Below, piece by piece: positions 1-23,704 of a stretch of 64,000 nt of DNA. Every line of letters starts with the position of its first letter. The stretch's first letter is position 1. Under the pieces are notes generated by a model. It had not been told where the DNA came from. It did not search any database and saw only the letters and a list, made by a program, of their open reading frames with translations. The translations under genes and the position numbers were made by a program. The stretch is from Flavipsychrobacter sp. (GTDB lineage Bacteria > Bacteroidota > Bacteroidia > Chitinophagales > Chitinophagaceae): positions 1-64,000 of the forward strand of contig JAEUVZ010000023.1 in the NCBI GenBank assembly GCA_016786665.1, read 5' to 3'.

Positions 1-170
1 GCATTCCTCCTACCATCAACATTACGGAACCCGACCCTGCACTACCTGCGGGATTGAACGTAGTGATGAACGAGGCCCTCCCTAAAAACGTATCGGTGGC
101 TATGAGCAACACCTTTGGTTTTGGCGGCCATAATGGAATAGTGGTATTTAAGAAAGTAACCAACAGCTAA
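1..170 (+). CDS. fabF: 3-oxoacyl-ACP synthase II (FabF), C-terminal fragment
   Basis: Only the last 55 codons are inside the window, read in the frame beginning at base 3 and ending with TAA at 168-170. The fragment carries the motif [11 protein letters not shown], the glycine-rich C-terminal signature of condensing enzymes of the KAS I/II type (usual form NSFGFGGTN), close to the C-terminus as in FabF. The enzyme elongates acyl-ACP with malonyl-ACP in fatty acid synthesis in the cytoplasm. The catalytic Cys and His residues lie upstream and cannot be inspected, so the choice of FabF over another KAS paralogue is by motif and length of tail only. Confidence 0.8.
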
Positions 171-196
171 CAACTGGTAAACACCAGCGACACGCA

Positions 197-523
197 TTAG
201 TGCGACACGAACTTCAGTCCTACGATGGACAGGATGAGTGTGCTGATGAAAAACAACCGCCAGAAGTCTGCCGGCTCGCGGAAAAAATAAATGCCCACCA
301 GCACGGTGCCTACCGCCCCTACGCCTGTCCACACGGCGTAGGCGGTACCAATAGGCAATGTCTGCGTAGCTTTTATCAGCAGCAGCATACTGATGGCCAG
401 GCTGACGAGAAACCCCGCATACCAATAAGCGACCGATACACCGGCCGCTCCCTTCGCTTTGCCCAGGCAAAAGGCGAAACCCACTTCAAACAATCCCGCG
501 ATAATTAATATCAGCCAATTCAT
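197..523 (-). CDS. sugE: SMR-family small multidrug/guanidinium exporter (Gdx/SugE-like)
   Basis: A 108-residue protein with four hydrophobic helices, the standard size of small multidrug resistance transporters. The essential membrane Glu is at residue 13 (motif AGLFEVGF), and the segment LPIGTAYAVWTGVGAVGT matches the Gdx/SugE branch more closely than EmrE. Gdx proteins work as dual-topology dimers exporting guanidinium in exchange for protons. I start at the internal ATG at 523 rather than the longer reading from 547, because the protein then begins MNWLIL as in the family. It is convergent with fabF. No guanidine riboswitch is recognisable in the short upstream region. Substrate is inferred from sequence branch only. 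Confidence 0.85.
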   Translation of the reverse strand: MNWLILIIAGLFEVGFAFCLGKAKGAAGVSVAYWYAGFLVSLAISMLLLIKATQTLPIGTAYAVWTGVGAVGTVLVGIYFFREPADFWRLFFISTLILSIVGLKFVSH

Positions 524-635
524 ATTAACTTTCGATTTAAGTGGCAAATATCGGCAACCGCAATCAGATTTTGTTTCCTATATTTACCCATCTGTATATC
601 CCACCGCACCATTTCGCTCACATTAATCAAACTGT

Positions 636-1901
636 ATGAAGAAAAAATTACTATTGGGCATCGCAGCCTTCTGCGCTGCCGGAATAACGGCTAAAGCGCA
701 ACAGGTACCCGCCATGTGCCGCAATACCGAAATGATGCAGGCAGTGTACCAGGCACATCCTGAAGCCGACCAGCAGGTATCTGAAAAGCAATCGGCTGCC
801 ATGAACATGCTGGCGCGCTCCCTATCTAAAAGCACAGCGGTAGATACATACAGGGTAGCGTTGGTATTTCACGTATACGGCACTACACAGGGCGGGCAGA
901 CAGTGAACAATACCGTGATACAGGCTGCCGTAGCCAAGCTGAACGAAGACTTTCACGGGCTGAACAACGATTATAATACCGTCCATACCTTGTTCCTGCC
1001 CAAGCGCTCTCCCAAGAACATTAAATTCTACCTGGCGAAAAAAGACCCCATGGGCAATAACACCACGGGCATTACTTACCACCCGGTTACGGCCGGGTTT
1101 GGCAACGGCTCAGGCTACGACACACAGATACAGGCCGATGCATGGGACAATAAGAAGTACATCAACATATACGTAATGAACGACCTGTACAATGATGGCA
1201 TTACGTATAACTCGGGCGTAGCCTGGTATCCTAATACCTGGATGACCAACAACAACCTGGCGCGTATAGTGTACAACGGCGCTTACCTGGCCACCAATAC
1301 CGACCCGGAATTCGCTTCTGTACTCACGCACGAGTTCGGGCACTTCTTCAATCTCATTCACACTTTTGAAGGAGGCTGCACCATGCCGAACGATGAAGTG
1401 ACGGATACCCCACCCTGCACCACCGCGCAGGGCTGCCACACCACTACTACCATAAATGCGCCGCTCAACTGCAACAGCATTCTCCTGAACGCGGAGAACT
1501 ACATGGACTACAATTCCGGCTGTTACAAAATGTTCACGCAGGGGCAGGCGGCCCGTATGGATACGGCGCTGTATTTCCCGTCGCGCGTTACGCTCTGGCA
1601 GGATACCACCAATATCATTACCGGAATTGATACGCCTGTAAATACATCCGTGGCAGGAGTGGAGACAGGGAACAGCTTCCAGCTCTACCCTAATCCTACT
1701 ACCGGTGTGCTGCAGGTAAGGTACGAACCGGCGGGTGAGGCCACCGTGCAGGTAACCAATACCGTAGGGCAAGTGGTATTTACCGGTGAGCTGAAGCAGG
1801 CGCATACGTCCATAGACCTTTCCGGTGAAGCGAAAGGCATCTACTTTGTAACTATTAATGAGGCAGGACGGAAACGGACACAGCGGGTAATGCTGTACTA
1901 A
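636..1901 (+). CDS. Secreted M43 (pappalysin-type) zinc metalloprotease with T9SS sorting domain
   Basis: A 421-residue protein with a signal peptide (about residues 1-22), a metzincin-type catalytic domain and a C-terminal type IX secretion sorting domain (about 345-421, beginning FQLYPNPTTG). The zinc site reads HEFGHFFNLIH with His232, Glu233, His236 and His242. The downstream Met-turn is ENYMDYNSG. In M43 peptidases the site is normally HExxHxxGxxH; here the Gly position is Asn239. The enzyme should be exported across the outer membrane by T9SS and be anchored or released at the cell surface, where it would degrade proteins. A near-consensus -7 box (TATATTTA) lies about 60 bp upstream. 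It is monocistronic, followed by a hairpin shared with the convergent pbpC operon. Confidence 0.85.
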   Translation: MKKKLLLGIAAFCAAGITAKAQQVPAMCRNTEMMQAVYQAHPEADQQVSEKQSAAMNMLARSLSKSTAVDTYRVALVFHVYGTTQGGQTVNNTVIQAAVAKLNEDFHGLNNDYNTVHTLFLPKRSPKNIKFYLAKKDPMGNNTTGITYHPVTAGFGNGSGYDTQIQADAWDNKKYINIYVMNDLYNDGITYNSGVAWYPNTWMTNNNLARIVYNGAYLATNTDPEFASVLTHEFGHFFNLIHTFEGGCTMPNDEVTDTPPCTTAQGCHTTTTINAPLNCNSILLNAENYMDYNSGCYKMFTQGQAARMDTALYFPSRVTLWQDTTNIITGIDTPVNTSVAGVETGNSFQLYPNPTTGVLQVRYEPAGEATVQVTNTVGQVVFTGELKQAHTSIDLSGEAKGIYFVTINEAGRKRTQRVMLY

Positions 1902-1932
1902 CACCAGCAAAAAACACTAATCGATAAACAGG

Positions 1933-1958
1933 AAGGGCTTGCGGAATGCAGGCCTTTT
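1933..1958. terminator. Hairpin between convergent genes
   Basis: The arms AAGGGCTTGC and GCAGGCCTT pair over nine base pairs with one bulged G around a GGAAT loop, followed by TTTTCG on the plus strand. It sits between the stop codons of the M43 protease and pbpC, so it probably ends transcription from one or both sides. Confidence 0.55.
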
Positions 1959-1961
1959 CGT

Positions 1962-4316
1962 TTACAGGAACTTTACCTTTATTTCTATATTGGCTACCCG
2001 GCCTTTATCATCCGTACAGGATATTTTGATTGCGGGAGACCGGGGAATAAAGAACGTCTTTTCTCCGGCCGCCGTAGTGGTGTAATATTGGTCATTGATA
2101 TACCAGTACACCTTCTGTACATCGTTCGATACCGTGCAGGAAAGTTGCAGCTGTTGCTGTTCTTTGTCGGCAATAAGATAGGTGAGGCCATTAGTCAGGG
2201 AATTGATGACCGGCGCGCTGCCTTCAAAGGTACGGGTACATTCAGGGTTGTGTGCGGGTATCTTCGCATAGGGTATGTGGGCCGACTCGTAATAGGCCGT
2301 TAGCTCCGGGCTGATGTTGTCGTACTGCTTCATCTTATACCCGGCTGCCGGGCAGCAGGAGGTGCAATACGATTTCTTTTCGTCGGGCGAAACGGCTACT
2401 TCTCTCAGGTGTTCACATACCCGGTTGTCCGATATGCCCGGTATGTAATAGTCCATTACTTGGTCGGCGCAGTAGTCGGCGGGCACTTTGCCTGTCCTGG
2501 AGCAGACCAGTCGGTAAGCCATCGATTCCGGCTGTTGCAGCCACTCCGCGTCCGATGCCTTCCGGTCTATAGCCTGAAACAACTGGAACAGTAAAGGCGT
2601 AGCCGTTCCCGCGCCATTCAAACCCGCCACCCCATGCCCGGAGAAATTACCGATCCACACACCTATGGTATACCGGCCGTTGTAGCCTATGCTCCAGGCG
2701 TCTTTCCGCCCATAAGAGGTCCCCGTCTTCCAGGCAATACGGGGTACGCCCTGCGCCTGGCTGGAAAGGTTGGGCAAATCAGGCCGGTACAATTCCGTCA
2801 GTATGGATGAAATCATATAAGCGGCCTCGGCCGATACTACTTTTACCGGCTTGCCCGCGCGCGTCACTACGGCTTTGTGTTTGTTCTTCATCCACAGGCT
2901 ATCCGGCAGTGTCAGTTGCGGCGCATAATAATTTCCCTGGCAGGCAAAGGCAGCATACAATGCCGTCAGCTCTTCCAGCCGCACTTCACAGCCACCCAAT
3001 ATCATGGAGAGCCCTACTTTCTTTCGCCCTTTCCATACCGATTGGAAACCTGCCTGCGACAGTGAGCTCACGAACACAGGCGTAGTGAGGTCGTTCAGCA
3101 CCTTTACCGCGGGAATATTCAGCGAGAGCCGGAGTGCATCGGCCACCGAAATATTTCCGCGGAAGGAGAGGTCATAGTTCTCCGGCGCATAGCCGTTGAT
3201 GTTGGTGGGCACATCAGCTATCATAGTGCGTGGCGTGGCCAGTCCCTTGTCGAAGGCCAGCCCGTAGAGCAGCGGCTTCAGCGTGCTGCCCGGCGAGCGG
3301 CGCGCATGCACCCCATCCACCTGGCCATGGTGAAATTTATCGAAGAAGTCTGAAGAGCCTACGTAGGCGCGCACCTCGTGGGTGGTGTTATCTATTACCA
3401 GCACAGCCGCGTTATGAATATCCTGCAGCTTCAGCATGTTCACATAGTTGGCGGTTAGTTCTTCCGCTTTCCGCTGCACTTCCCGGTCTATGGTAGCGCG
3501 TATTTCCGGCAGTGCGGGCTGCGCCCTCCGTAGCCGCCAGGCCAGTTGCGGCGCCTGGCGCGGAGCGTTGTGGCGGTAGGCCGCCAGTGGTTCCTCCAGG
3601 GCATCGCGTATGGTAGCGCTGTCAAAGAGTTCCGCCTCCGCAAATCGCCGCAGCCATTTATTCCGTTCGGCTACTATGCGGTCATTGTCCTTGCCTATCA
3701 CCAGCGAGTTGGGACGGTTGGGGATGATGCTCAGCGCCGTTATCTCCGCCAGCGATAACTGGTCGGGCGTTTTATCAAAATACAGGATAGAGGCCGCTTT
3801 TACCCCTTGTATGTTAGAGCCATAAGGAACCATGTTCAGGTAGAGCTGCAATATCTCCCGCTTGCTGTAATGTACTTCCAGTTGCGTAGCGCGAAACATC
3901 TCTACTATCTTGCTAATGTAGTTGCGCTTCCTCGGCTCCATCATCCGGGCTACCTGCATGGTAATGGTAGAAGCCCCCGAAGTGCGCCGCAGCGAGAAGA
4001 GATTATTCACCGCCGCGCGGCCCACCGCCAGTGGATTGACACCAAAGTGGCGATAGAAGTGCTTATCCTCTTTGTACACTATTGCTTTTTCCAGCTCGGG
4101 GGTCAGTTCATCCAGCCGGGCCTTCATGCGCCACTGCTGGTCGGGCGTAAGAAAGGCGTGCAGCACCGTACCATCCCTGGCGGTTATCACCGGGGCGTAC
4201 ACCAGCTCGGCACGCACGGGAAACAACAGGTCCAGCAGAACAAACACAACCACCAAAGCGAGCAGGGTCACCCCCGCCCGCTTCAGCAGTTTTTTAGCCT
4301 TTGGTCGCAGCTTCAC
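1962..4316 (-). CDS. pbpC: Penicillin-binding protein 1C (glycosyltransferase/transpeptidase)
   Basis: A 784-residue class A penicillin-binding protein. After an N-terminal membrane anchor (about 12-32) comes a GT51 glycosyltransferase domain with the catalytic Glu83 in EDKHFYRH, then a transpeptidase domain with S344-x-x-K347, S398-L-N400 and K530-TGT. A C-terminal region after about residue 690 fits the PBP1C-specific domain. It polymerises and possibly cross-links peptidoglycan on the outer face of the inner membrane. It is the second gene of a two-gene operon, beginning 2 bp after the stop of an alpha-2-macroglobulin gene. The pairing of PbpC with bacterial alpha-2-macroglobulin is widely conserved (yfhM-pbpC in Escherichia coli) and is thought to combine protease defence with wall repair. 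Confidence 0.95.
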   Translation of the reverse strand: MKLRPKAKKLLKRAGVTLLALVVVFVLLDLLFPVRAELVYAPVITARDGTVLHAFLTPDQQWRMKARLDELTPELEKAIVYKEDKHFYRHFGVNPLAVGRAAVNNLFSLRRTSGASTITMQVARMMEPRKRNYISKIVEMFRATQLEVHYSKREILQLYLNMVPYGSNIQGVKAASILYFDKTPDQLSLAEITALSIIPNRPNSLVIGKDNDRIVAERNKWLRRFAEAELFDSATIRDALEEPLAAYRHNAPRQAPQLAWRLRRAQPALPEIRATIDREVQRKAEELTANYVNMLKLQDIHNAAVLVIDNTTHEVRAYVGSSDFFDKFHHGQVDGVHARRSPGSTLKPLLYGLAFDKGLATPRTMIADVPTNINGYAPENYDLSFRGNISVADALRLSLNIPAVKVLNDLTTPVFVSSLSQAGFQSVWKGRKKVGLSMILGGCEVRLEELTALYAAFACQGNYYAPQLTLPDSLWMKNKHKAVVTRAGKPVKVVSAEAAYMISSILTELYRPDLPNLSSQAQGVPRIAWKTGTSYGRKDAWSIGYNGRYTIGVWIGNFSGHGVAGLNGAGTATPLLFQLFQAIDRKASDAEWLQQPESMAYRLVCSRTGKVPADYCADQVMDYYIPGISDNRVCEHLREVAVSPDEKKSYCTSCCPAAGYKMKQYDNISPELTAYYESAHIPYAKIPAHNPECTRTFEGSAPVINSLTNGLTYLIADKEQQQLQLSCTVSNDVQKVYWYINDQYYTTTAAGEKTFFIPRSPAIKISCTDDKGRVANIEIKVKFL

Positions 4317-16706: not shown

Positions 16707-17282
16707 TTACTTTTTAATGTGTAATTGCAGTCTTTCTATCTTATCCTTCAAAATACGCCGCCCTTCCGAGAGGTGCCATTTAGAAGTACCTTCACTAATG
16801 CCTACCATCTTGCCTATCTCCTTGTGCGAGTAGCCCTCCATTACATACATGTTGAATACGGTGCGTGTAGCTACGGGCAGCGATTGTACCAGCTCTATCA
16901 GCTGGTTGTAATACAGCCTGTCCGCGTGGTCTTTGTGTACATATTCATCTTTTTCAACAAGTAGCACTTTTTCGTTATACCGGCTGTTCTGCTTTACATA
17001 ATCAGACACCGCATGGAAAACGATCTTGCGAAGCCAGCCTTCAAAAGAACCGGAAAAAGTGTACTGCTGAACCTTCTGAAAAGCGCGCAAAAAACCATTG
17101 TTCAGCACTTCTTCAGCCTGCATTTCACTATCTATATACCTGCGAACGACAGACATCATTCTTGGGTAAAACAACTTGTATAACTTTTCTTGTGCCGCCC
17201 GCTCGTTGCGGATACAGCCGTGAATAAGTTCTTCAAGCTCGCTTGCCTGACCTTGTACCGTGTACGCCAATGCTATAGACAA
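16707..17282 (-). CDS. ECF-family RNA polymerase sigma factor
   Basis: 191 residues with sigma-70 region 2 (about 25-85, with the core-binding run QAEEVLNNGFLRAFQK) and region 4 (about 128-180, helix-turn-helix with HKEIGKMVGISEGTSKWHL). No region 3 is present, which is typical of extracytoplasmic-function sigma factors. The reading begins with TTG at 17282; a second TTG four codons later is possible, and there is no nearby in-frame ATG. It would direct RNA polymerase to a regulon including, by analogy with the family, its own operon. The downstream gene is its presumed membrane partner. Confidence 0.88.
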   Translation of the reverse strand: MSIALAYTVQGQASELEELIHGCIRNERAAQEKLYKLFYPRMMSVVRRYIDSEMQAEEVLNNGFLRAFQKVQQYTFSGSFEGWLRKIVFHAVSDYVKQNSRYNEKVLLVEKDEYVHKDHADRLYYNQLIELVQSLPVATRTVFNMYVMEGYSHKEIGKMVGISEGTSKWHLSEGRRILKDKIERLQLHIKK

Positions 17283-17435: not shown

Positions 17436-19376
17436 CTAGTCGGCCAGGGAGAACCGGGCACCGAACAGGAAATTGGTACCGGGCATGGGCCGCTGGGCCA
17501 CTACCTGGTATTGCTGGTTAAAGATGTTATTGGCCTGGCCGGAAAGCAACAGGCTTCGCTGCCCGCCCAGCCGCAGCAGGTAGGATAGCTGCACATTGCC
17601 GGTATGGTAGGGCTCTACCCACGCCGACTCGTCGGTGGTGTAGAAGCGATAGCCTGTATAAGTGTGATTATAATTGATATACAACGACTTATAGGTAATC
17701 CCGGCGTTCAGCTGGCCATTGTAGCGCGGCGCATAGGGTATCTGTTTGCCAATGCTGCCATCGTTGGGGGCGTAGCTGCGCTGGGTAGTGGCCAGTACAT
17801 ATGCGGTGTTCAGCCCCAGGTGAATGACTGTATTCTCCTTCCGGTAGGTCAATTTGTTTTCGGTTTCCATGCCCCGGCTTTTTACCTCGGCTATATTATG
17901 AGGTGTCCAGATGGCACCGCCAAACCAGACGATCCAATCCTTGATATCCCGGTTAAAGACCGATACATCGTGGTAGAGCTGCAGCCCCCGGGCTATGCCC
18001 GCCTTCAGGGTATAGCCCGCGTCCTGCGTCCATCCCCGCTCAGGAGCCAGCGATGGATTGCCACCGGGGGAATAGTATAGTTCATTGAGCGTGGGAGCAC
18101 GATAGGACTTTTGAACATTCACCCTGAATGTCAACCAATTAAGAACGGCATATGAAGCATTAATTCCGGGAAGAAACACCGTTTCCCGGTCTATTACCTG
18201 CTGGCTGGCCTGGGTGGATATGCGTATCTTGTCCCTGAGCAGGGCGAGCACATAAGAGGCGCTGACGCCCGCCCGGAGTTGCTGCCCGGCGGCATCTTTC
18301 ATCCAGCTATAATTGGCGGGGACGAACAACAGCACGGTATGCCGCTTCCCGAACGAACGGCGTATCCCCCACTCGGTGTACGACTGGTAGCTGCGGTTAG
18401 CCGTAGTGAGCCCGATAGCCTCATCAGCAAACCGGAGGTGGTCTTCTATCAACGCCGTCTTCAGGTACACCTGTGACCGCTCGCGCTCCTTTCGCCAGTG
18501 GAGCATCACTCTTTTCGACTGGTCTACCCTGTCTTTTACCGAATACGCTTCAAAGAGCGCAGCGGGTATTTCCCGGTCAAAATTCTGAAACCAGGCCGAA
18601 ATACTCAGGGTGTTGCCCTCTGCTATACGGTACGCCCCGTTCATCATGAAACCGAGGCTGTATAGCCGGGCATTATCATTGGGCACTTCGTTTCCGGAGC
18701 GGGTGTAGCGGAAGTCGTTCCGGGCCGATTGTACAAAGCCGTTGGCACTGATGTACCACCGCCGGTCGTGAAACGCCACGCGCGCCCCTCCTGAATACTG
18801 GTGAAAGCTACCCGCCCCCAGCGACAAGGCCATCTCTTTGCGCCTTATACTGTCGAACACCGGCAGGTCATTTTCCAGGAGCAGGGCTCCCCCTACGTTC
18901 CCGCTGCCCCAGAGCGCCGACGAACCCCCATAAACAATGTTCACCCTGTCTATCATAGCCACTGGCAAGGTGGAGAGGTCGCTGATGCCCAACGCCGCAT
19001 TCTGAAGGGGAATGCCGTTCCAGAGCACTTGCGACTGCGCCGCCGAAGCCCCACGGAAATTGAGCGTGGCCAGCCCGTTGAAGCCATACGATTTTACAAA
19101 CGCGGAAGTCTGCTGGCTGATGAGGTTGGCCATGTTCTGGAACTTGTATTGCTGCAGTACAATGCTATCGATGTGCACCACCTTCTGGCCTGGTATGAAC
19201 CGGGTAATCTTCTCATCGTCGGAAACCTTTTCAGAGCGCTCGCCTTCTATCTTTACCTCGGGCAGATTTTTATCGCCCCCCTGCGCCCGCGCAGAAAGAG
19301 CGCAGGATAACACCGCTACCACCAGCAGCGGGCTCCGTAAACAAGAAAGGACGCTATGAAAAAAGGATAATATCAC
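17436..19376 (-). CDS. btuB: TonB-dependent outer-membrane receptor, BtuB-like (cobalamin)
   Basis: 646 residues with a signal peptide, an N-terminal plug domain (about 45-170, including NFRGASAAQSQVLWNGIPL and GGSSALWGSGNVGGALLL) and a long beta-barrel. The length matches BtuB-type receptors (about 600-650) rather than the larger SusC-type receptors. The start is GTG, overlapping the TGA stop of the upstream BtuG-like gene (GTGA), which indicates translational coupling. It is the last gene of a four-gene operon headed by a cobalamin riboswitch, which is the main evidence that the ligand is vitamin B12 or a related corrinoid. It would transport the corrinoid across the outer membrane using TonB energy. 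Confidence 0.85.
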   Translation of the reverse strand: MILSFFHSVLSCLRSPLLVVAVLSCALSARAQGGDKNLPEVKIEGERSEKVSDDEKITRFIPGQKVVHIDSIVLQQYKFQNMANLISQQTSAFVKSYGFNGLATLNFRGASAAQSQVLWNGIPLQNAALGISDLSTLPVAMIDRVNIVYGGSSALWGSGNVGGALLLENDLPVFDSIRRKEMALSLGAGSFHQYSGGARVAFHDRRWYISANGFVQSARNDFRYTRSGNEVPNDNARLYSLGFMMNGAYRIAEGNTLSISAWFQNFDREIPAALFEAYSVKDRVDQSKRVMLHWRKERERSQVYLKTALIEDHLRFADEAIGLTTANRSYQSYTEWGIRRSFGKRHTVLLFVPANYSWMKDAAGQQLRAGVSASYVLALLRDKIRISTQASQQVIDRETVFLPGINASYAVLNWLTFRVNVQKSYRAPTLNELYYSPGGNPSLAPERGWTQDAGYTLKAGIARGLQLYHDVSVFNRDIKDWIVWFGGAIWTPHNIAEVKSRGMETENKLTYRKENTVIHLGLNTAYVLATTQRSYAPNDGSIGKQIPYAPRYNGQLNAGITYKSLYINYNHTYTGYRFYTTDESAWVEPYHTGNVQLSYLLRLGGQRSLLLSGQANNIFNQQYQVVAQRPMPGTNFLFGARFSLAD

Positions 19377-20461
19377 TTATCGAAGTAGAAATGGCCGGGG
19401 CCTACCCCGCAGCTAAAGGTTCTTAATTGCTCCCCGGAGGTGTTATAGATGTACACCTGGCCCCTTTGCGTGAAGCCCTTAGGGTCGCCTATATACAGGT
19501 TGCCGGTTTCCGGGTCTATACCCAATGCCCAGAAATACTGCAGGCTGGAGGCCGCTACCAGCGGCACGGCGGGGAGCGCCCCATCGCTTACGCCCATGCG
19601 GAATACCCCATTAAAATCAGGATGCGTGCCACTGTAGTCCACTTCTATAAAATAGAGGTACTTTCCATCGCGGCTCTGCACCAGGCGCATGGGGTCGGCC
19701 CCGGCGGGGAACGGCAACGACCTTAGCGTACTGCCGGAGGCGCCGTCCACCTGGCGGAGCTCCGCGTTTTTAGCCTTCTGTATGTTGCCGGAAAGCACCC
19801 ATATACTGCTGTCCCTGTCCAGCAACAACTCTTTGGGCGCTGCACCCACCTGGCTGCTGAATACGCTTACCTGGTCGGTAGCCGTGTTTACCGAGTACAC
19901 CTTGCTGACCGACGTATCCCAAAGGGCTACCAGCAGCTTATCGCGCAGCAAGAGCATCCCTTCGGGGTTGTTGCCCGGCAGGGTTACCGTTCCCGTTATG
20001 GCCAGTGTCTGCGGATTAATGATGGTCAGTTTATTGGTGTAGAGCGCCGATACGTATGCTTTCGTGTCACTCACCTTCACTATATACCGCGGCTTGGAAA
20101 CAGGGATGCTGCCCTGCAGCTTCCAGTCGCTGCGGTTGATAACCAGAATTTTATCGGAATTATTGATGCAGAGAAAAAAACGATCGTCTATGCGGGTCAT
20201 GCTCTGGAACACATCGCCCAGGCTTTGCTGATTCACCGACAGAAATACATCGTCGAACCGCTCATCGGTAAAGGGTCGGTAAAGGCCCAGCGAGGAGTTA
20301 CCGTTCCCGAAATTTCCTTCACAAATCACGTAAACGTTCTGCGCGGCAGAGTCAACCCCCGGCATGGGATTGGCGGGGTTGGGCTTGTCCTTTACACAAG
20401 ATGCCAGTAGCAGCAGGCCGCTCAGCAACAGGACTACTGCTTTACGATTTTCTCTACCCAT
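19373..20461 (-). CDS. btuG: BtuG-like surface lipoprotein (YncE/DUF5074 beta-propeller)
   Basis: 362 residues. It starts with a lipoprotein signal (lipobox LLASC followed by VKDKPNP, a charged tail that could mark surface export). The body is made of repeats of beta-propeller type (for example FFLCINNSDKILVINRSDW, TKAYVSALYTNKLTIINPQ and GNLYIGDPKGFTQRGQVYI), as in YncE/DUF5074 proteins. Bacteroides BtuG is such a propeller; it binds B12 very tightly and forms a lid on BtuB. The start at 20461 overlaps the upstream gene by 28 bp and places the signal peptide at the N-terminus; a longer reading to 20557 adds an implausible Arg/Pro-rich leader. The gene lies directly before btuB in the riboswitch operon. 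Confidence 0.8.
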   Translation of the reverse strand: MGRENRKAVVLLLSGLLLLASCVKDKPNPANPMPGVDSAAQNVYVICEGNFGNGNSSLGLYRPFTDERFDDVFLSVNQQSLGDVFQSMTRIDDRFFLCINNSDKILVINRSDWKLQGSIPVSKPRYIVKVSDTKAYVSALYTNKLTIINPQTLAITGTVTLPGNNPEGMLLLRDKLLVALWDTSVSKVYSVNTATDQVSVFSSQVGAAPKELLLDRDSSIWVLSGNIQKAKNAELRQVDGASGSTLRSLPFPAGADPMRLVQSRDGKYLYFIEVDYSGTHPDFNGVFRMGVSDGALPAVPLVAASSLQYFWALGIDPETGNLYIGDPKGFTQRGQVYIYNTSGEQLRTFSCGVGPGHFYFDK

Positions 20462-21420
20462 TTTTCTCCGTTTTCGCCCTGCAGGTGCAGGGTATATATC
20501 CCCGGCGGGAACGCGGACAACGCCACGCTGGTGTCGCCCTCCGCCTGACGGCGCCATAGTACCTTACCCGTTACATCGCACAGCGACAGGTAACCAGGCT
20601 GCAAGCCACTAATGTATAAGCGGTCGGTTGCCGGGTTGGGATAGATGGTGGCATGTCCCCCCGGGGTACCGGCAATGCCCAGCCCGTACTGGTGTATCAC
20701 CCCTACCGCATCCAGGTCAAATCCCCCGGTGGGAAAGTTAGTAGGATACGGGTCGTTCACGAGGTTGCCTGCCGTATCTGTTGTACCTGTGTTGGCATTA
20801 ACGGCGCCTACCACATCTACTATGCGTATGTGGGTAACATGCTGGAGGTCCAGCCCCTGTGTACCGGCCAGGTCGTCGAGATTGAAAGGGGTGCCATAGC
20901 CTGAGATGTACTTACCGGCCAGGTTGTTTACCAGCCCGGCGTTCATATACACGCCCGACCCCGGCACCTGCGACGTAGCGGGTGTGAGCGAGTGGCAGGG
21001 GAACCGAAAATAATTTACCCCATCGGAACTTACTTCTACAAATGCCAGTTCCAGGAAAGCGTCTTCGGGATTGGCGGGGTCGGCAAAGCCATTCTCAAAC
21101 ACCGCGAAATCGGCACCGGGCCCGTTGAAGATGGGCGTTGCAAACGTGAGTATGGCTATCCCGCTATCGCCCAGGCTCACAATCGATTGATTAGCCGGCC
21201 CTGTTGCGTTATTGTCGGTACCCGCGCTTACCATCCCCTGTGTAGGGTCGGCAATATCTATATAACCCCGCTGCACAGCGCACCCGGTAGCCCAACCGGT
21301 AAAGGAGGGACTACCCGCCGCTATAGCAGTAGAACCGGACACACCCACCTGCGGCGCGTATTGTGCGCGCGACGCAGGAAGGGTACATGCCAGTGCTATC
21401 AGTGTAATTAAAAATTTCAT
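20434..21420 (-). CDS. T9SS-exported surface protein of the cobalamin operon, unknown domain
   Basis: 328 residues with a signal peptide (MKFLITLIALACTLPASRAQ) and a C-terminal T9SS type A sorting domain (about 253-328, starting ATIYPNPATDRLYISG). The central part (about 20-240) has a jelly-roll-like pattern with motifs GADFAVFENGF, FLELAFVEVSSDG and GGFDLDAVGVIH. I cannot assign it to a named family. The last motif (FDLDAVG) follows a region about relations of parts by date or place in many bacterial surface proteins, and does not reveal a ligand. It lies between the DUF4465 protein and BtuG in the riboswitch-controlled operon, so a role in corrinoid capture is inferred from context. Confidence 0.7.
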   Translation of the reverse strand: MKFLITLIALACTLPASRAQYAPQVGVSGSTAIAAGSPSFTGWATGCAVQRGYIDIADPTQGMVSAGTDNNATGPANQSIVSLGDSGIAILTFATPIFNGPGADFAVFENGFADPANPEDAFLELAFVEVSSDGVNYFRFPCHSLTPATSQVPGSGVYMNAGLVNNLAGKYISGYGTPFNLDDLAGTQGLDLQHVTHIRIVDVVGAVNANTGTTDTAGNLVNDPYPTNFPTGGFDLDAVGVIHQYGLGIAGTPGGHATIYPNPATDRLYISGLQPGYLSLCDVTGKVLWRRQAEGDTSVALSAFPPGIYTLHLQGENGEKWVEKIVKQ

Positions 21421-21421
21421 G

Positions 21422-22435
21422 CTATTGCTTTACAAAACGGCTGCTGTACAAGTGGCTGCCATCCGACAACTGCACCACATATGTGCCTGCCGGCAAAGAT
21501 GAGACATTTATCGCTTCTTTATTGTCCGCTACCTTCTGCGACAGCAATTCCTTTCCGGTCATATCCATCACTTTCAGCTCGCGTATAGCGGCATTGTTCA
21601 CCTCTACATACAGCACTCCGGCAGCGGGGTTAGGATACACCTTAGCCGGCTGGTGACGGGCCAGGCCGCGTACACTCGCAGGAGTAGTTGTTTTGGTCGT
21701 GAAATTATCGATTGCGAAGTAGGCCGGGTTGTTCATACCAAATCCACCCACGGTATCCGTTGATTGGAGGGCAAATGAAATGCTGTCTACATTGCCCAGG
21801 GAGGTAAGGTCTACCCACTGCCAGTCGTTGACAATATAGTCCTGCGTGCTGTCAGTAAACCGGAAATCAGCCAGGTAAAAGTCTACCGTGTCGGCTTTCT
21901 GCACGCCACCCAGGTAACCGTAAACGGTTAACCGGTACCAATCCTCCTCCACATTGGGCTGGCCGCCAAACTTTTTGGTCACGAAGTCGCCATCGCGCAT
22001 GGCCAGGTACCCAAAGGTGGTATTGGTGATATGGAAACCGAGTACGGTATCGCCCAGGGCGGCGGTATCGGTTATTTTTACATAGTTGGTAGGTGAGTAT
22101 CCGTGCCAGTAAACAGCGTAGCCTATGGTACTGTTCTGCCCAATAGCCGGGAATGCAGCATACTGGTTAGTATAGCCCGCTGTAATGCTGTCGGTCATAT
22201 TAGAGTAAGCGAAACCACCATTCCACAGGCCACCCCATGCGGTATCGTACATGCAGGGGAAGAAACCCTGACCATCGTTAAAACCAACATCTACGCCCGG
22301 CTGGGAGTAATTGATATAGGCTGTATCAGCATAGTTGGTGAGGAGGGAAAAGGTATCGAACGTAGCGACTACCTGTGCCTTAACGGCGAATGTGCTCAGC
22401 AGGAGCGTGAAGAATGCAAGTGTAGATTTGCGCAT
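21422..22435 (-). CDS. DUF4465 T9SS-sorted surface protein, first gene of cobalamin operon
   Basis: 337 residues: signal peptide (MRKSTLAFFTLLLSTFAVKAQ), a DUF4465-type beta domain (about 22-255, with GFNDGQGFFPCMYDTAWGG and WQWVDLTSLGNVDSISFAL), then a T9SS sorting domain (about 270-337, KVYPNPAAGVLYVEVN). I start at 22435, not at the longer frame from 22492, because the signal peptide begins there. DUF4465 genes are often found beside BtuB/BtuG-type genes in Bacteroidota, which agrees with the cobalamin riboswitch just upstream. It probably acts at the cell surface in corrinoid binding or delivery; direct binding has not been shown here. The next gene follows after 1 bp. Confidence 0.82.
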   Translation of the reverse strand: MRKSTLAFFTLLLSTFAVKAQVVATFDTFSLLTNYADTAYINYSQPGVDVGFNDGQGFFPCMYDTAWGGLWNGGFAYSNMTDSITAGYTNQYAAFPAIGQNSTIGYAVYWHGYSPTNYVKITDTAALGDTVLGFHITNTTFGYLAMRDGDFVTKKFGGQPNVEEDWYRLTVYGYLGGVQKADTVDFYLADFRFTDSTQDYIVNDWQWVDLTSLGNVDSISFALQSTDTVGGFGMNNPAYFAIDNFTTKTTTPASVRGLARHQPAKVYPNPAAGVLYVEVNNAAIRELKVMDMTGKELLSQKVADNKEAINVSSLPAGTYVVQLSDGSHLYSSRFVKQ

Positions 22436-22567
22436 ATAGCTAAATTGATTTTTCAGACAATTTAAAATTGCGCCTACGGTATAATTACACAAACAGGAAA
22501 GATGGCGTTAGCCGCCTCTTTTCTTATCTGAGCCTTTATTCCCGAAGGCATAATAAGTAATATGTGC
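22436..22567 (-). promoter_or_regulatory. Leader between riboswitch and first operon gene
   Basis: About 130 nt of untranslated leader. It contains two short possible stems on the minus strand, GCCTT/AAGGC around 22524-22547 and GGCG/CGCC around 22504-22517, the latter followed by a T-rich ATCTTTCC. Either could form the expression platform (a weak terminator), but the structure is not decisive by eye. Confidence 0.4.
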
Positions 22568-22750
22568 AAAGGCAGGTCTTCTGACTCGCTTCACTTTTTG
22601 CCGCCTTCCCGTTCCGGTTTGAAACAGTGGCAAGAAGAACAAAAAGCTTTACATGAAGCTCACAGCATCGGGTAATGTCCGGGATTCGCACCCGGTTCCC
22701 TTTTCATCCTGTACCTGAGGTAGAGGAACCATTGCGCGGCGAAGGTAACC
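22568..22750 (-). promoter_or_regulatory. Cobalamin (vitamin B12) riboswitch
   Basis: The minus strand shows the conserved B12-box elements in order: AAAAGGGAACCGGGTGCGAA followed by TCCCGG, then ACCCGATGCTGTG, TTGCCACTG, ACGGGAAGGCGG, and finally GTCAGAAGACCTGCC. These are the hallmarks of the class I cobalamin aptamer. It lies about 130 bp before a four-gene operon on the same strand encoding two T9SS surface proteins, a BtuG-like lipoprotein and a BtuB-like receptor. High intracellular adenosylcobalamin should reduce expression of the operon. A T-rich stretch upstream (around 22780-22790) may be part of the promoter region. Confidence 0.95.
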
Positions 22751-22846
22751 CGATTTTCGGGATTTTGACGTATTGTCGTTCTTTTTTTTACATTCGGTAC
22801 CGCCCGCCCAGAGAGCGATGCCGTAACAAACTATAACTGAAGCAGA

Positions 22847-23704
22847 TTAGAAACGATAGCCAATACTGAAGATAAGATGCGCCAACCTGGTGGTGCCCAT
22901 CTCCCGGAAAACGCCGGGCTTTATATCTCCGTAAGGGCCGTACACCACTTCGGTGCTTTTATTGCTGAATGTATAACCGAAGCCACCCTCCAGCCCTATG
23001 TACATGTAAGGGCTGGGTTGCAGCATCAGCGACTGGTTTAGTAACATGCCAACGCGCTTTACCGCTACGTTGAATGACGGAGAAGATACACGGAAAAAAT
23101 CGCGGCGAAAATGCCCATCCGTATAAGATAACTGGGGACCAACAGCATAACGCACCTTGCCCCGGGCATTGAACGGATAGACCTTGACCGCAGGGCGAAA
23201 CTCAAAGATGCGGCTATCGCGGTTCAAGGACGGGCCAGGTAAAACGTAATCGTTGTCATTGCCCCATGTTTTCAGATAGTACGCTACCGGGAGGTAGATA
23301 CTGACCATGCCCTTCTTATCCAATATCCGCTCGTAAGAGAGGCCCATGGTCATTCCCGCATCGCTCACGCTCAGCAGCGAAACAGCGGCGATATTATTCT
23401 TATAATCAGCAGATGTATGGCTTTTCGGCGGCACGGACTGGCGGTGGCGCATGTGCGGTGTGCCGGGAATGCGCTTGTCTTCAGAGCCATCCTGGTACAC
23501 TATACGGCTCACATCGCGCATGGGCAGCTTGTACTCCGGGCCATCGGGGTTTGCGGTATTTTTATACGAAACTTCGCGGGAGCTTACGTTCAGCACCTTG
23601 CCGGAGATTTGTTTTCCGTTTCGTTGATAGATCGTGTCCTGGGCGGAAACTGTTGCGGTAAAAAGCAACAACGGGAAAAGGGCGAGCATTGGTTTTACAG
23701 GCAT
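22847..23704 (-). CDS. Secreted/outer-membrane protein of unknown function
   Basis: 285 residues with a signal peptide (cleavage near VSAQ). The first 75 residues of the mature protein form a small beta module with the pattern YQRNGKQISGKVLNVSSREV...GPEYKLPMRDVSRIVY, frequent at the N-terminus of Bacteroidota envelope proteins. The rest (about 105-285) alternates polar and hydrophobic residues and ends in LIFSIGYRF, the typical C-terminal aromatic strand of an outer-membrane barrel. It lies upstream of the riboswitch on the same strand but ends before it, so it is a separate unit. No function can be assigned. Confidence 0.65.
   Translation of the reverse strand: MPVKPMLALFPLLLFTATVSAQDTIYQRNGKQISGKVLNVSSREVSYKNTANPDGPEYKLPMRDVSRIVYQDGSEDKRIPGTPHMRHRQSVPPKSHTSADYKNNIAAVSLLSVSDAGMTMGLSYERILDKKGMVSIYLPVAYYLKTWGNDNDYVLPGPSLNRDSRIFEFRPAVKVYPFNARGKVRYAVGPQLSYTDGHFRRDFFRVSSPSFNVAVKRVGMLLNQSLMLQPSPYMYIGLEGGFGYTFSNKSTEVVYGPYGDIKPGVFREMGTTRLAHLIFSIGYRF

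Follow-up and report, generated by a model that had tools for sequence, protein, structure and literature searches.

A cobalamin riboswitch-headed operon of Flavipsychrobacter sp. places two proteins with type IX sorting domains ahead of BtuG- and BtuB-like genes

The window analyzed here, a 64,000-nucleotide stretch of Flavipsychrobacter sp. DNA (contig JAEUVZ010000023.1), carries a cobalamin riboswitch followed by four tightly packed genes (Table 1). The aptamer match spans the whole RF00174 model (positions 1–189), exceeds the gathering cut-off of 31.5 bits, and is the single match in the whole genome (3.51 Mb, listed as 98.7% complete). An earlier reading made from the sequence alone had claimed one such riboswitch ahead of four genes and had estimated its position as 22568–22750; the Rfam covariance search bears out the claim and refines the boundaries to those in Table 1. 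With the called starts, the spacing given in that reading is exact, such that a 1-bp gap is followed by a 28-bp overlap and then a 4-bp overlap between btuG and btuB. An alternative TTG start of the DUF4465 gene is also open, up to 22492. The riboswitch leader has a fold z of −1.88, and a consensus scan of the minus strand from 22380 to 22860 found neither a promoter nor a terminator.

Table 1 Features of the riboswitch-headed operon, in order of transcription.
Feature	Coordinates	Strand	Evidence or remark
Cobalamin riboswitch aptamer, RF00174	22554..22748	-	cmscan 111.8 bits, E 3.5e-27; first ATG 118 nt downstream
BtuJ-like DUF4465 protein P0001, 337 aa, signal-peptide-like start and T9SS type A sorting domain	21422..22435	-	PF14717
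C-terminal T9SS type A sorting domain of P0001	21425..21640	-	TIGR04183 59.0 bits, cut-off 23
BtuH-like protein P0002, 328 aa, X2 domain and T9SS type A sorting domain	20434..21420	-	AlphaFold2 model
X2 domain, predicted remote BtuH relative	20683..21366	-	X2 profile matches inside btuH genes
C-terminal T9SS type A sorting domain of P0002	20437..20646	-	TIGR04183 41.7 bits, cut-off 23
BtuG-like propeller surface lipoprotein, 362 aa	19373..20461	-	DUF5074; lipobox LLASC by sight
BtuB-like TonB-dependent receptor, 646 aa, GTG start	17436..19376	-	Plug and barrel

The last two genes had been named BtuG-like and BtuB-like, and their nearest solved relatives are indeed the BtuBG chains of Bacteroides thetaiotaomicron. 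The BtuG-like protein scores 48.7 bits against DUF5074 (cut-off 27.2) and matches a chain of the BtuBG entry at E 3.6e-36. It resembles BtuG in sequence, lipobox and position next to btuB, and differs from BtuG1 in that no BtuH domain is fused to it. The receptor matches the B. thetaiotaomicron BtuB chain at E 2.7e-56 and misses the cut-off of the NCBIfam BtuB model TIGR01779 (84.8 vs 599.7 bits), and for this reason it is called BtuB-like. Contrary to the earlier description of the Bacteroides surface proteins BtuB, BtuG and BtuH as lipoproteins, BtuB is a barrel and not a lipoprotein.

The first protein, P0001, scores 163.9 bits against the DUF4465 model PF14717 (IPR027828; cut-off 25), and solved DUF4465 chains are matched at E 4.3e-25 (9qpm) and E 8.4e-25 (9fct, BtuJ1). 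DUF4465 is a B12-binding family in which eight divergent members bind B12 and more than 70% of members are lipoproteins, the remainder carrying periplasmic signals (PMC13398666); the terms T9SS, type IX and sorting are absent from the text of that paper. Like the BtuJ family, P0001 has the domain above cut-off and keeps the HI-loop tyrosine (Tyr245 of BtuJ1, Tyr239 in P0001). It differs in having Phe141 at the position of the DE-loop Tyr146 of BtuJ1, and in carrying a T9SS tail in place of the lipobox, its first 40 residues containing no cysteine by sight.

Sorting domains had been claimed for both of the first two proteins, and both score above the TIGR04183 cut-off. Residues 238–310 of the P0002 model also align with 8glk, the cargo domain of NucA (Z 11.4, rmsd 1.7, 71 aligned), and the genome encodes the T9SS translocon protein SprA (2569 bits). 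The tails thus predict that both capture proteins would be exported by the type IX system. The sequence-only reading had gone further and suggested a version adapted to type IX secretion. The tails and a recurrent layout agree with this suggestion, but the genome does not force the adaptation, since G174, G177, G189 and G191, four SprA-containing genomes from the same family, encode DUF4465 as a lipoprotein. By the same observation, lipoprotein DUF4465 is ruled out as a mark of genomes that are free of T9SS.

One hypothesis is that there is nothing unusual about the riboswitch and BtuBG, and that the tails are a neutral lineage habit with no change in function, since any surface protein might carry one where T9SS is present. 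The persistence of lipoprotein DUF4465 in SprA-bearing relatives would fit this explanation, as would the DUF4465 tree, in which anchor type is clustered (3 changes vs a shuffled mean of 9.7). A tailed frame at locus L119 with a faint propeller match (22 bits to the BtuG profile) suggests, moreover, that propellers can also take a tail. However, among BtuG relatives above 150 bits, which include those of the same operons, the T9SS tail is found in none of 97 frames, and the split looks systematic. Neutrality has an appreciable but lesser probability. Because the lipid anchor persists in the clear BtuG relatives, it is mainly the accessory capture proteins that appear to have changed export route. 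The operon order is probably BtuJ-like, BtuH-like, BtuG, BtuB, with two capture proteins that have shifted from lipid anchors to T9SS.

The second protein had been left unnamed. Its tail stands, and its identity can be refined by structure prediction. The X2 domain matches no Pfam family. PDB searches with P0002 returned only its tail (E 0.025) and one chance-level match by sequence, and a sole match at E 0.57 by profile. AlphaFold2 models P0002 with a pLDDT of 94.6 (96.0 for the X2 domain alone). When the X2 model was re-aligned to 973 chains, the two solved BtuH structures ranked first (Z 12.8 at rmsd 3.3 with 159 aligned) and second (Z 12.1 at rmsd 3.2 with 164 aligned), ahead of a next-best chain at Z 10.8 with 132 aligned, and BtuH also came first in re-alignment of the full-length model among rows covering the X2 domain. 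In Foldseek, X2 alone placed BtuH at rank 28 (E 0.011), yet with the top query TM-score (0.46) among the best 50 matches listed; with the full P0002 model, BtuH was absent from the best 50 matches listed, where two-domain beta proteins lead. The fold class of X2 is common to sugar-binding CBM32 and discoidin domains.

Profile searches point the same way as the re-alignment. Over 61 genomes of a Bacteroides-type family, the X2 profile gave 4 matches, all inside btuH hits, and a local X2 profile matched 7 of 30 btuH frames. The X2 motif N92-x-F94, whose residues correspond to Asn110 and Phe112 of P0002 (both at least 90% conserved among 79 rows), aligns with Asn399 and Phe401 of BtuH2 in an hhalign comparison of X2 with ten BtuH sequences, a weak match of 38 columns (probability 6%, E 0.006). 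The BtuH2 numbers used here equal chain position plus 100, which fits Gln333, Asn399 and Phe401. The B12 contacts of BtuH2 include these three residues together with Tyr510, Trp511, His476 and Trp577, and the BtuH domain has been described as having no known structural homologs (PMC8941943). X2 thus resembles BtuH (7biz, and the C-terminal domain of BtuG1 in 8blw) in its best re-aligned structures and in a motif whose Asn and Phe counterparts touch B12. In contrast, X2 is about 50 residues shorter (226 vs 278 model positions), and P0002 has no PKD domain match, lacks by sight the DxNxNG stretch of BtuH, and carries a T9SS tail, which was scored in 75 of 80 X2 proteins and in none of 30 BtuH frames. 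The BtuH domain profile (A4) has no match anywhere in the genome, and P0002 is for that reason named BtuH-like rather than BtuH. On the model comparison and the profile matches, the second protein is a predicted remote relative of BtuH, and we infer from this kinship that X2 may bind corrinoids.

An alternative hypothesis is that BtuG and BtuB import B12 and DUF4465 binds it, but that X2 is a CBM32- or discoidin-like glycan binder, a scaffold or an adaptor of BtuBG. Its fold neighborhood is crowded with CBM32 and discoidin domains, the BtuH2 contacts Tyr510, Trp511 and His476 could not be placed on the shorter X2, and a Leptospira lipoprotein whose binding activities have been studied is a weak NCBIfam match. 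We consider this reading unlikely, in that the BtuH structures outrank every CBM32 row, the X2-profile matches in the Bacteroides-type family are confined to btuH, and at four loci (L148, L155, L157 and L158) X2 directly follows a cobalamin riboswitch with no other marker gene within 7 kb on the same strand. Three of these four (L155, L157 and L158) may be close kin with near-identical layouts.

How widespread is this arrangement? X2 occurs in about one-third of the genomes sampled from the class (135 of 395, 119 of them strong matches), and DUF4465 is uncommon across the wider sample of the phylum (11 of 395 genomes). Of the 80 X2 loci nearest to this one, 70 have a riboswitch, the first marker gene being X2 in 4 and BtuG in 0, and two loci (L110 and L142) fuse DUF4465, X2 and one tail in a single frame. 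The earlier proposal of a B12 capture operon under riboswitch control, two of whose proteins have T9SS tails, is supported, and many Bacteroidota records share the layout; the sources, judged by record titles, are environmental relatives. In Flavobacterium psychrophilum, a cobalamin riboswitch is reported to precede a TonB-dependent transporter.

The genome encodes a B12-dependent methionine synthase as well as mutase-type proteins that bind B12, and has no match to CobJ/CbiH, so its owner, judged by gene content, probably scavenges B12. A dedicated BtuFCD was sought, and the sole FecCD-type permease found scores best among NCBIfam models against BtuC, yet below the cut-offs. It adjoins an ATPase above a heme-model cut-off and a weak HutX match, and given these heme-type neighbors it is not claimed for B12; this one FecCD-type ABC importer looks like a heme system, which leaves the inner-membrane B12 step with no candidate.

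DUF4465, BtuH, BtuG and BtuB of B. thetaiotaomicron bind or import B12, and by analogy the four proteins here would do the same and would hand corrinoids from one to the next. In the proposed mechanism, at low cellular B12 the riboswitch would allow the synthesis or translation of one transcript, which it would shut off once B12 is plentiful. The BtuJ-like and BtuH-like proteins would cross the inner membrane by Sec and the outer membrane by T9SS via their C-terminal sorting domains, for surface display or release, where they would catch extracellular corrinoids and pass them to the lipid-anchored lid BtuG. BtuG would in turn pass them to BtuB for TonB-driven import. We regard such a scavenging operon, with riboswitch control, T9SS export and hand-over to BtuG and BtuB, as the likely function of the locus.

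Whether the two tailed proteins would stay at the surface is a separate matter. Type A tails can end in surface attachment or release, and the tailed proteins could be released or vesicle-borne, cobalophore-like scavengers rather than fixed beside BtuBG. BtuJ proteins of B. thetaiotaomicron are enriched on extracellular vesicles and deliver B12 from them (PMC12751083). Release or vesicle carriage of the two tailed proteins here is somewhat unlikely. Returning to X2, we hypothesize, at a little short of an even chance, that it is a large unnamed corrinoid-binding family, the counterpart of BtuH in T9SS-bearing Bacteroidota, exported with DUF4465 through T9SS to act as a cobalophore, either on the surface or released, and that much B12 capture by non-gut Bacteroidota proceeds via T9SS cargo and not lipoproteins.

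In the literature found, Bacteroidota B12-capture proteins are lipoproteins, mainly of gut Bacteroides. A search that mostly left subscription journals uncovered, and in which X2 has no name, found nothing joining vitamin B12, type IX secretion and sorting domain, or BtuH and T9SS. The locus points to parallel B12 capture in environmental relatives by proteins with type IX secretion signals, and makes vitamin capture a further likely role of T9SS cargo. It also gives a testable function to a Pfam-less family and links that family to BtuH, a domain hitherto described as standing alone in structure.

The closest known systems are the cobamide uptake operons of B. thetaiotaomicron. The operon described here has only four genes and no BtuFCD-type transporter genes. 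Those operons (PMC10404256, PMC12751083) likewise unite a riboswitch, DUF4465, a BtuH-type fold, a BtuG lid and BtuB; their capture proteins, however, are lipoproteins, whereas two of those encoded here carry T9SS sorting domains.

The sequence-only reading placed a cobalamin riboswitch at the head of four tightly packed genes, and a covariance-model search (cmscan) confirmed a cobalamin aptamer there, scoring 111.8 bits over the whole Rfam model; it is the sole cobalamin riboswitch match in the 3.51 Mb genome and lies 118 nt upstream of the first gene, P0001. The spacing given in that reading (a 1-bp gap, then 28-bp and 4-bp overlaps) is exact by gene coordinates, and domain searches recovered the type IX secretion (T9SS) sorting domains, or tails, assigned to the first two proteins. 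The genes on either flank do not appear to belong to the operon.

Features of the operon in the window and of related loci
Feature	Location	Strand	Description
Aptamer	22554-22748	minus	cobalamin riboswitch
P0001	22435-21422	minus	DUF4465 + T9SS type A sorting domain
P0002	21420-20434	minus	in Pfam, T9SS sorting domain only
X2 domain	20683-21366	minus	N-terminal domain of P0002
P0003	20461-19373	minus	DUF5074 propeller (BtuG-like); lipobox by sight
P0004	19376-17436	minus	TonB-dependent receptor (BtuB-like)
Flank	16707-17282		ECF-type sigma factor
Flank	22847-23704		285-aa protein without Pfam match
L110	2832-4541		DUF4465 + X2 + one T9SS tail
L142	4312-6096		DUF4465 + X2 + one T9SS tail
L119	4474-5751		T9SS-tailed protein beside X2
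L134	8646-9935		T9SS-tailed protein beside X2
L135	8639-9934		T9SS-tailed protein beside X2
L139	8526-9935		T9SS-tailed protein beside X2
L149	2050-3390		T9SS-tailed protein beside X2
L151	577-1896		T9SS-tailed protein beside X2
L161	2654-4024		T9SS-tailed protein beside X2
L166 (G000:C55)	5-3980		FecCD ABC importer locus; follows T9SS-tailed protein, precedes weak HutX match

The solved chains closest to P0001 are DUF4465 proteins, 9qpm (E 4.3e-25) and then BtuJ1 9fct (E 8.4e-25); Tyr239 is the retained HI-loop tyrosine of BtuJ1, and Phe141 stands at the place of its DE-loop tyrosine. A study of the family shows that eight DUF4465 proteins with identity as low as 16% bind B12; it counts more than 70% of members as lipoproteins and assigns periplasmic signals to the remainder, and its text contains none of the terms T9SS, type IX or sorting (PMC13398666).

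A Pfam search with the rows of an X2 protein alignment found no family for the window's X2 and, across the other 24 rows, two matches at chance level, and a sequence search of solved structures with P0002 and its profile gave no match for the domain. AlphaFold2 modeled full P0002 (73 rows) at pLDDT 94.6 and X2 alone (79 rows) at pLDDT 96.0, and Foldseek candidates were re-aligned against both models. With the full model, BtuH structures came out on top for X2, 7biz at Z 12.3 (rmsd 3.3, 159 aligned) and 8blw at Z 11.9 (rmsd 3.4, 169 aligned), the following row on this domain reaching Z 10.6. With X2 alone, the two BtuH structures led at Z 12.8 (rmsd 3.3, 159 aligned) and Z 12.1 (3.2, 164), followed by Z 10.8 (132 aligned) and by CBM32 at Z 10.0 and lower; Foldseek's own ranking separates BtuH less clearly than this re-alignment does.

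Profile searches relate X2 to BtuH independently of the structure comparison. The BtuH profile combines a domain of genome G423, which has a locus for a near relative of BtuH2 (7biz, E 1.4e-206), with nine more added by similarity from G423 and three other genomes, and it matches 34 of the 61 genomes of G423's family. The X2 profile gives four matches on the same 61 genomes (G954:C20, G929:C25, G917:C30 and G950:C62; E 2e-4 to 5e-4), all within btuH matches of the BtuH profile. A local X2 profile, run in a small search, matches 7 of 30 btuH frames. The stretch common to both contains the motif DF-x-V/I-x-x-N-x-F. In BtuH2, the B12 phosphate is contacted by Asn399 and the lower ligand by Phe401 (PMC8941943); taking residue number as chain position + 100, a numbering also consistent with Gln333 of BtuH2, both fall within its GNAF motif, and N92 and F94, their counterparts in X2, are conserved in at least 90% of 79 rows. 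Alignment of X2 with BtuH by hhalign reproduces this register, though with a low probability of 6% (E 0.006). Since the BtuH profile found no match in the window's genome, P0002 is named BtuH-like, not BtuH.

Weak matches to the NCBIfam model of the Leptospira lipoprotein LIC_13355 were observed for 72 of 79 X2 domains (the window's and 78 relatives; best 9.5e-8), the window's scoring 27.8 bits where the cut-off is 120. Binding activities of this lipoprotein have reportedly been studied (PMC11891782), and it is a possible distant relative of the B12-capture domains. Separately, nine genomes of one family group (f77: G575, G616, G647, G675, G701, G727, G751, G796 and G816) have at least seven X2-profile matches each, mostly partial, covering the core only and lying in long frames, the longest of which is 952 aa among the matches listed, and here the X2 core motif appears to have expanded.

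DUF4465 occurs in 49 of 198 genomes of the window's order and in 11 of 395 of a phylum sample. Fifty neighborhoods around the order-level matches, plus the window, yielded 52 frames, of which 44 carry a sorting domain (three, in L049, L051 and L062, also fit a crude lipobox pattern), six have a lipobox without one and two are cut by contig ends. Of the 50 loci, 47 have a cobalamin riboswitch; a core pattern, which gave 0 matches when each of 131 sequences was shuffled once, detects 45 of these, and cmscan alone the other two. Among the marker genes (DUF4465, X2, BtuG and BtuB), the first to follow the riboswitch is DUF4465 in 29 loci, with BtuB taking this place in 18. Inspection of nine loci by cmscan confirmed eight, and the ninth (L038) starts at a contig end.

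Scanning of the species-genome collection returned at least 535 X2 relatives, and the best 80 were retained, on contigs partly common to the DUF4465 set. Counting same-strand genes up to 7 kb away, BtuB lies near 55 of them, BtuG near 65, DUF4465 near 62 and any of the three near 74; among the six loci with no other marker gene, four (L148, L155, L157, L158) have X2 directly after the riboswitch. The X2 protein carries a scored sorting domain in 75 of 80, the other five being cut short (three) or having a divergent tail by sight (two). A riboswitch was found in 70 loci (56 by pattern, 14 by cmscan), followed first by DUF4465 (51), BtuB (8), X2 (4), a DUF4465-X2 fusion (1) or another T9SS-tailed frame (6). 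Five of the remaining ten (L096, L101, L114, L117, L132) start at most 300 bases from a contig end, with cmscan run on one only; in L128, L143, L150, L151 and L161 cmscan found no cobalamin riboswitch. The single reading frames of L110 and L142 are natural fusions of both capture domains. The L110 record is titled Azovibrio restrictus, yet carries a typical Bacteroidota operon; we take this species to be a betaproteobacterium, and the record is probably mislabeled or a mixed bin.

How does anchor type relate to the secretion system? The translocon protein SprA is present in the window's genome and in 385 of 395 genomes of its class (presumably Bacteroidia). X2 occurs in 135 of the 395 (119 of them with E of roughly 1e-37 or lower, the others weak partial matches), none of them among the ten SprA-less genomes (Fisher p 0.014). 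BtuH is strong in eight (11 counting weak ones), none of which has X2, and SprA is missing in three of these eight (p 0.0006) and present in five. Both associations are suggestive only, because some SprA-less genomes are small or incomplete and some are mutually related. Moreover, four genomes (G174, G177, G189, G191) have SprA together with a lipoprotein DUF4465, which counts against a simple rule linking SprA to the tail. No sorting domain was found in 30 BtuH frames, 20 of which have a lipobox by pattern. A DUF4465 tree with 111 domains, of which 98 are tailed, 10 are from lipoproteins and 3 are neither, requires three anchor changes (shuffled mean 9.7; 0 of 500 shuffles that low), just one of them forced by well-supported branches, and long branches leave some lipoprotein rows insecurely placed.

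Among 97 BtuG frames above 150 bits, none has a sorting domain and 85 have a lipobox by pattern; of the 12 missed by the pattern, one is damaged and visual inspection finds a cysteine site in the other 11. A tailed frame occupies DUF4465's position in six loci (L119, L134, L135, L139, L145, L149), with similar frames in L151 and L161. All eight match only the tail in Pfam (below its cut-off in L135 and L161); those of L151 and L161 show faint propeller matches, and that of L119 reaches 22 bits to the BtuG profile. Such frames may be propellers with a tail, in which case the no-tail rule for BtuG would be less strict. The tailed proteins of ~430-470 aa beside X2 lie mostly immediately 3' of the riboswitch, have the tail as their sole above-cut-off Pfam domain, and are perhaps a further capture protein.

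At a contig end, the window's genome encodes a partial B12-dependent methionine synthase; it also has a B12-binding protein of 139 aa and a B12-binding/MeaB fusion, which we read as mutase parts. A search for CobJ/CbiH, the single de novo synthesis step examined, found no match in this genome. The one FecCD permease found lies in what is likely, by its gene content, a heme locus, also with a T9SS-tailed protein.

In the most likely working order, low B12 would open the riboswitch, the two tailed proteins (DUF4465 and X2) would leave the cell through the T9SS and capture corrinoids outside, and BtuG and BtuB would then receive them, as in the pedal-bin model (PMC10404256); the steps past sequence and model are those that we infer. 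If corrinoid binding is true, the unnamed X2 family may merit its own name. A literature search limited largely to paper listings found neither a T9SS version of B12 capture nor a link of BtuH to one, and the operon's parts are of known kinds. For BtuJ on B. theta vesicles, a role like that of a siderophore carrier is proposed (PMC12751083), and by analogy a T9SS-borne form could act likewise, via release or vesicle display.
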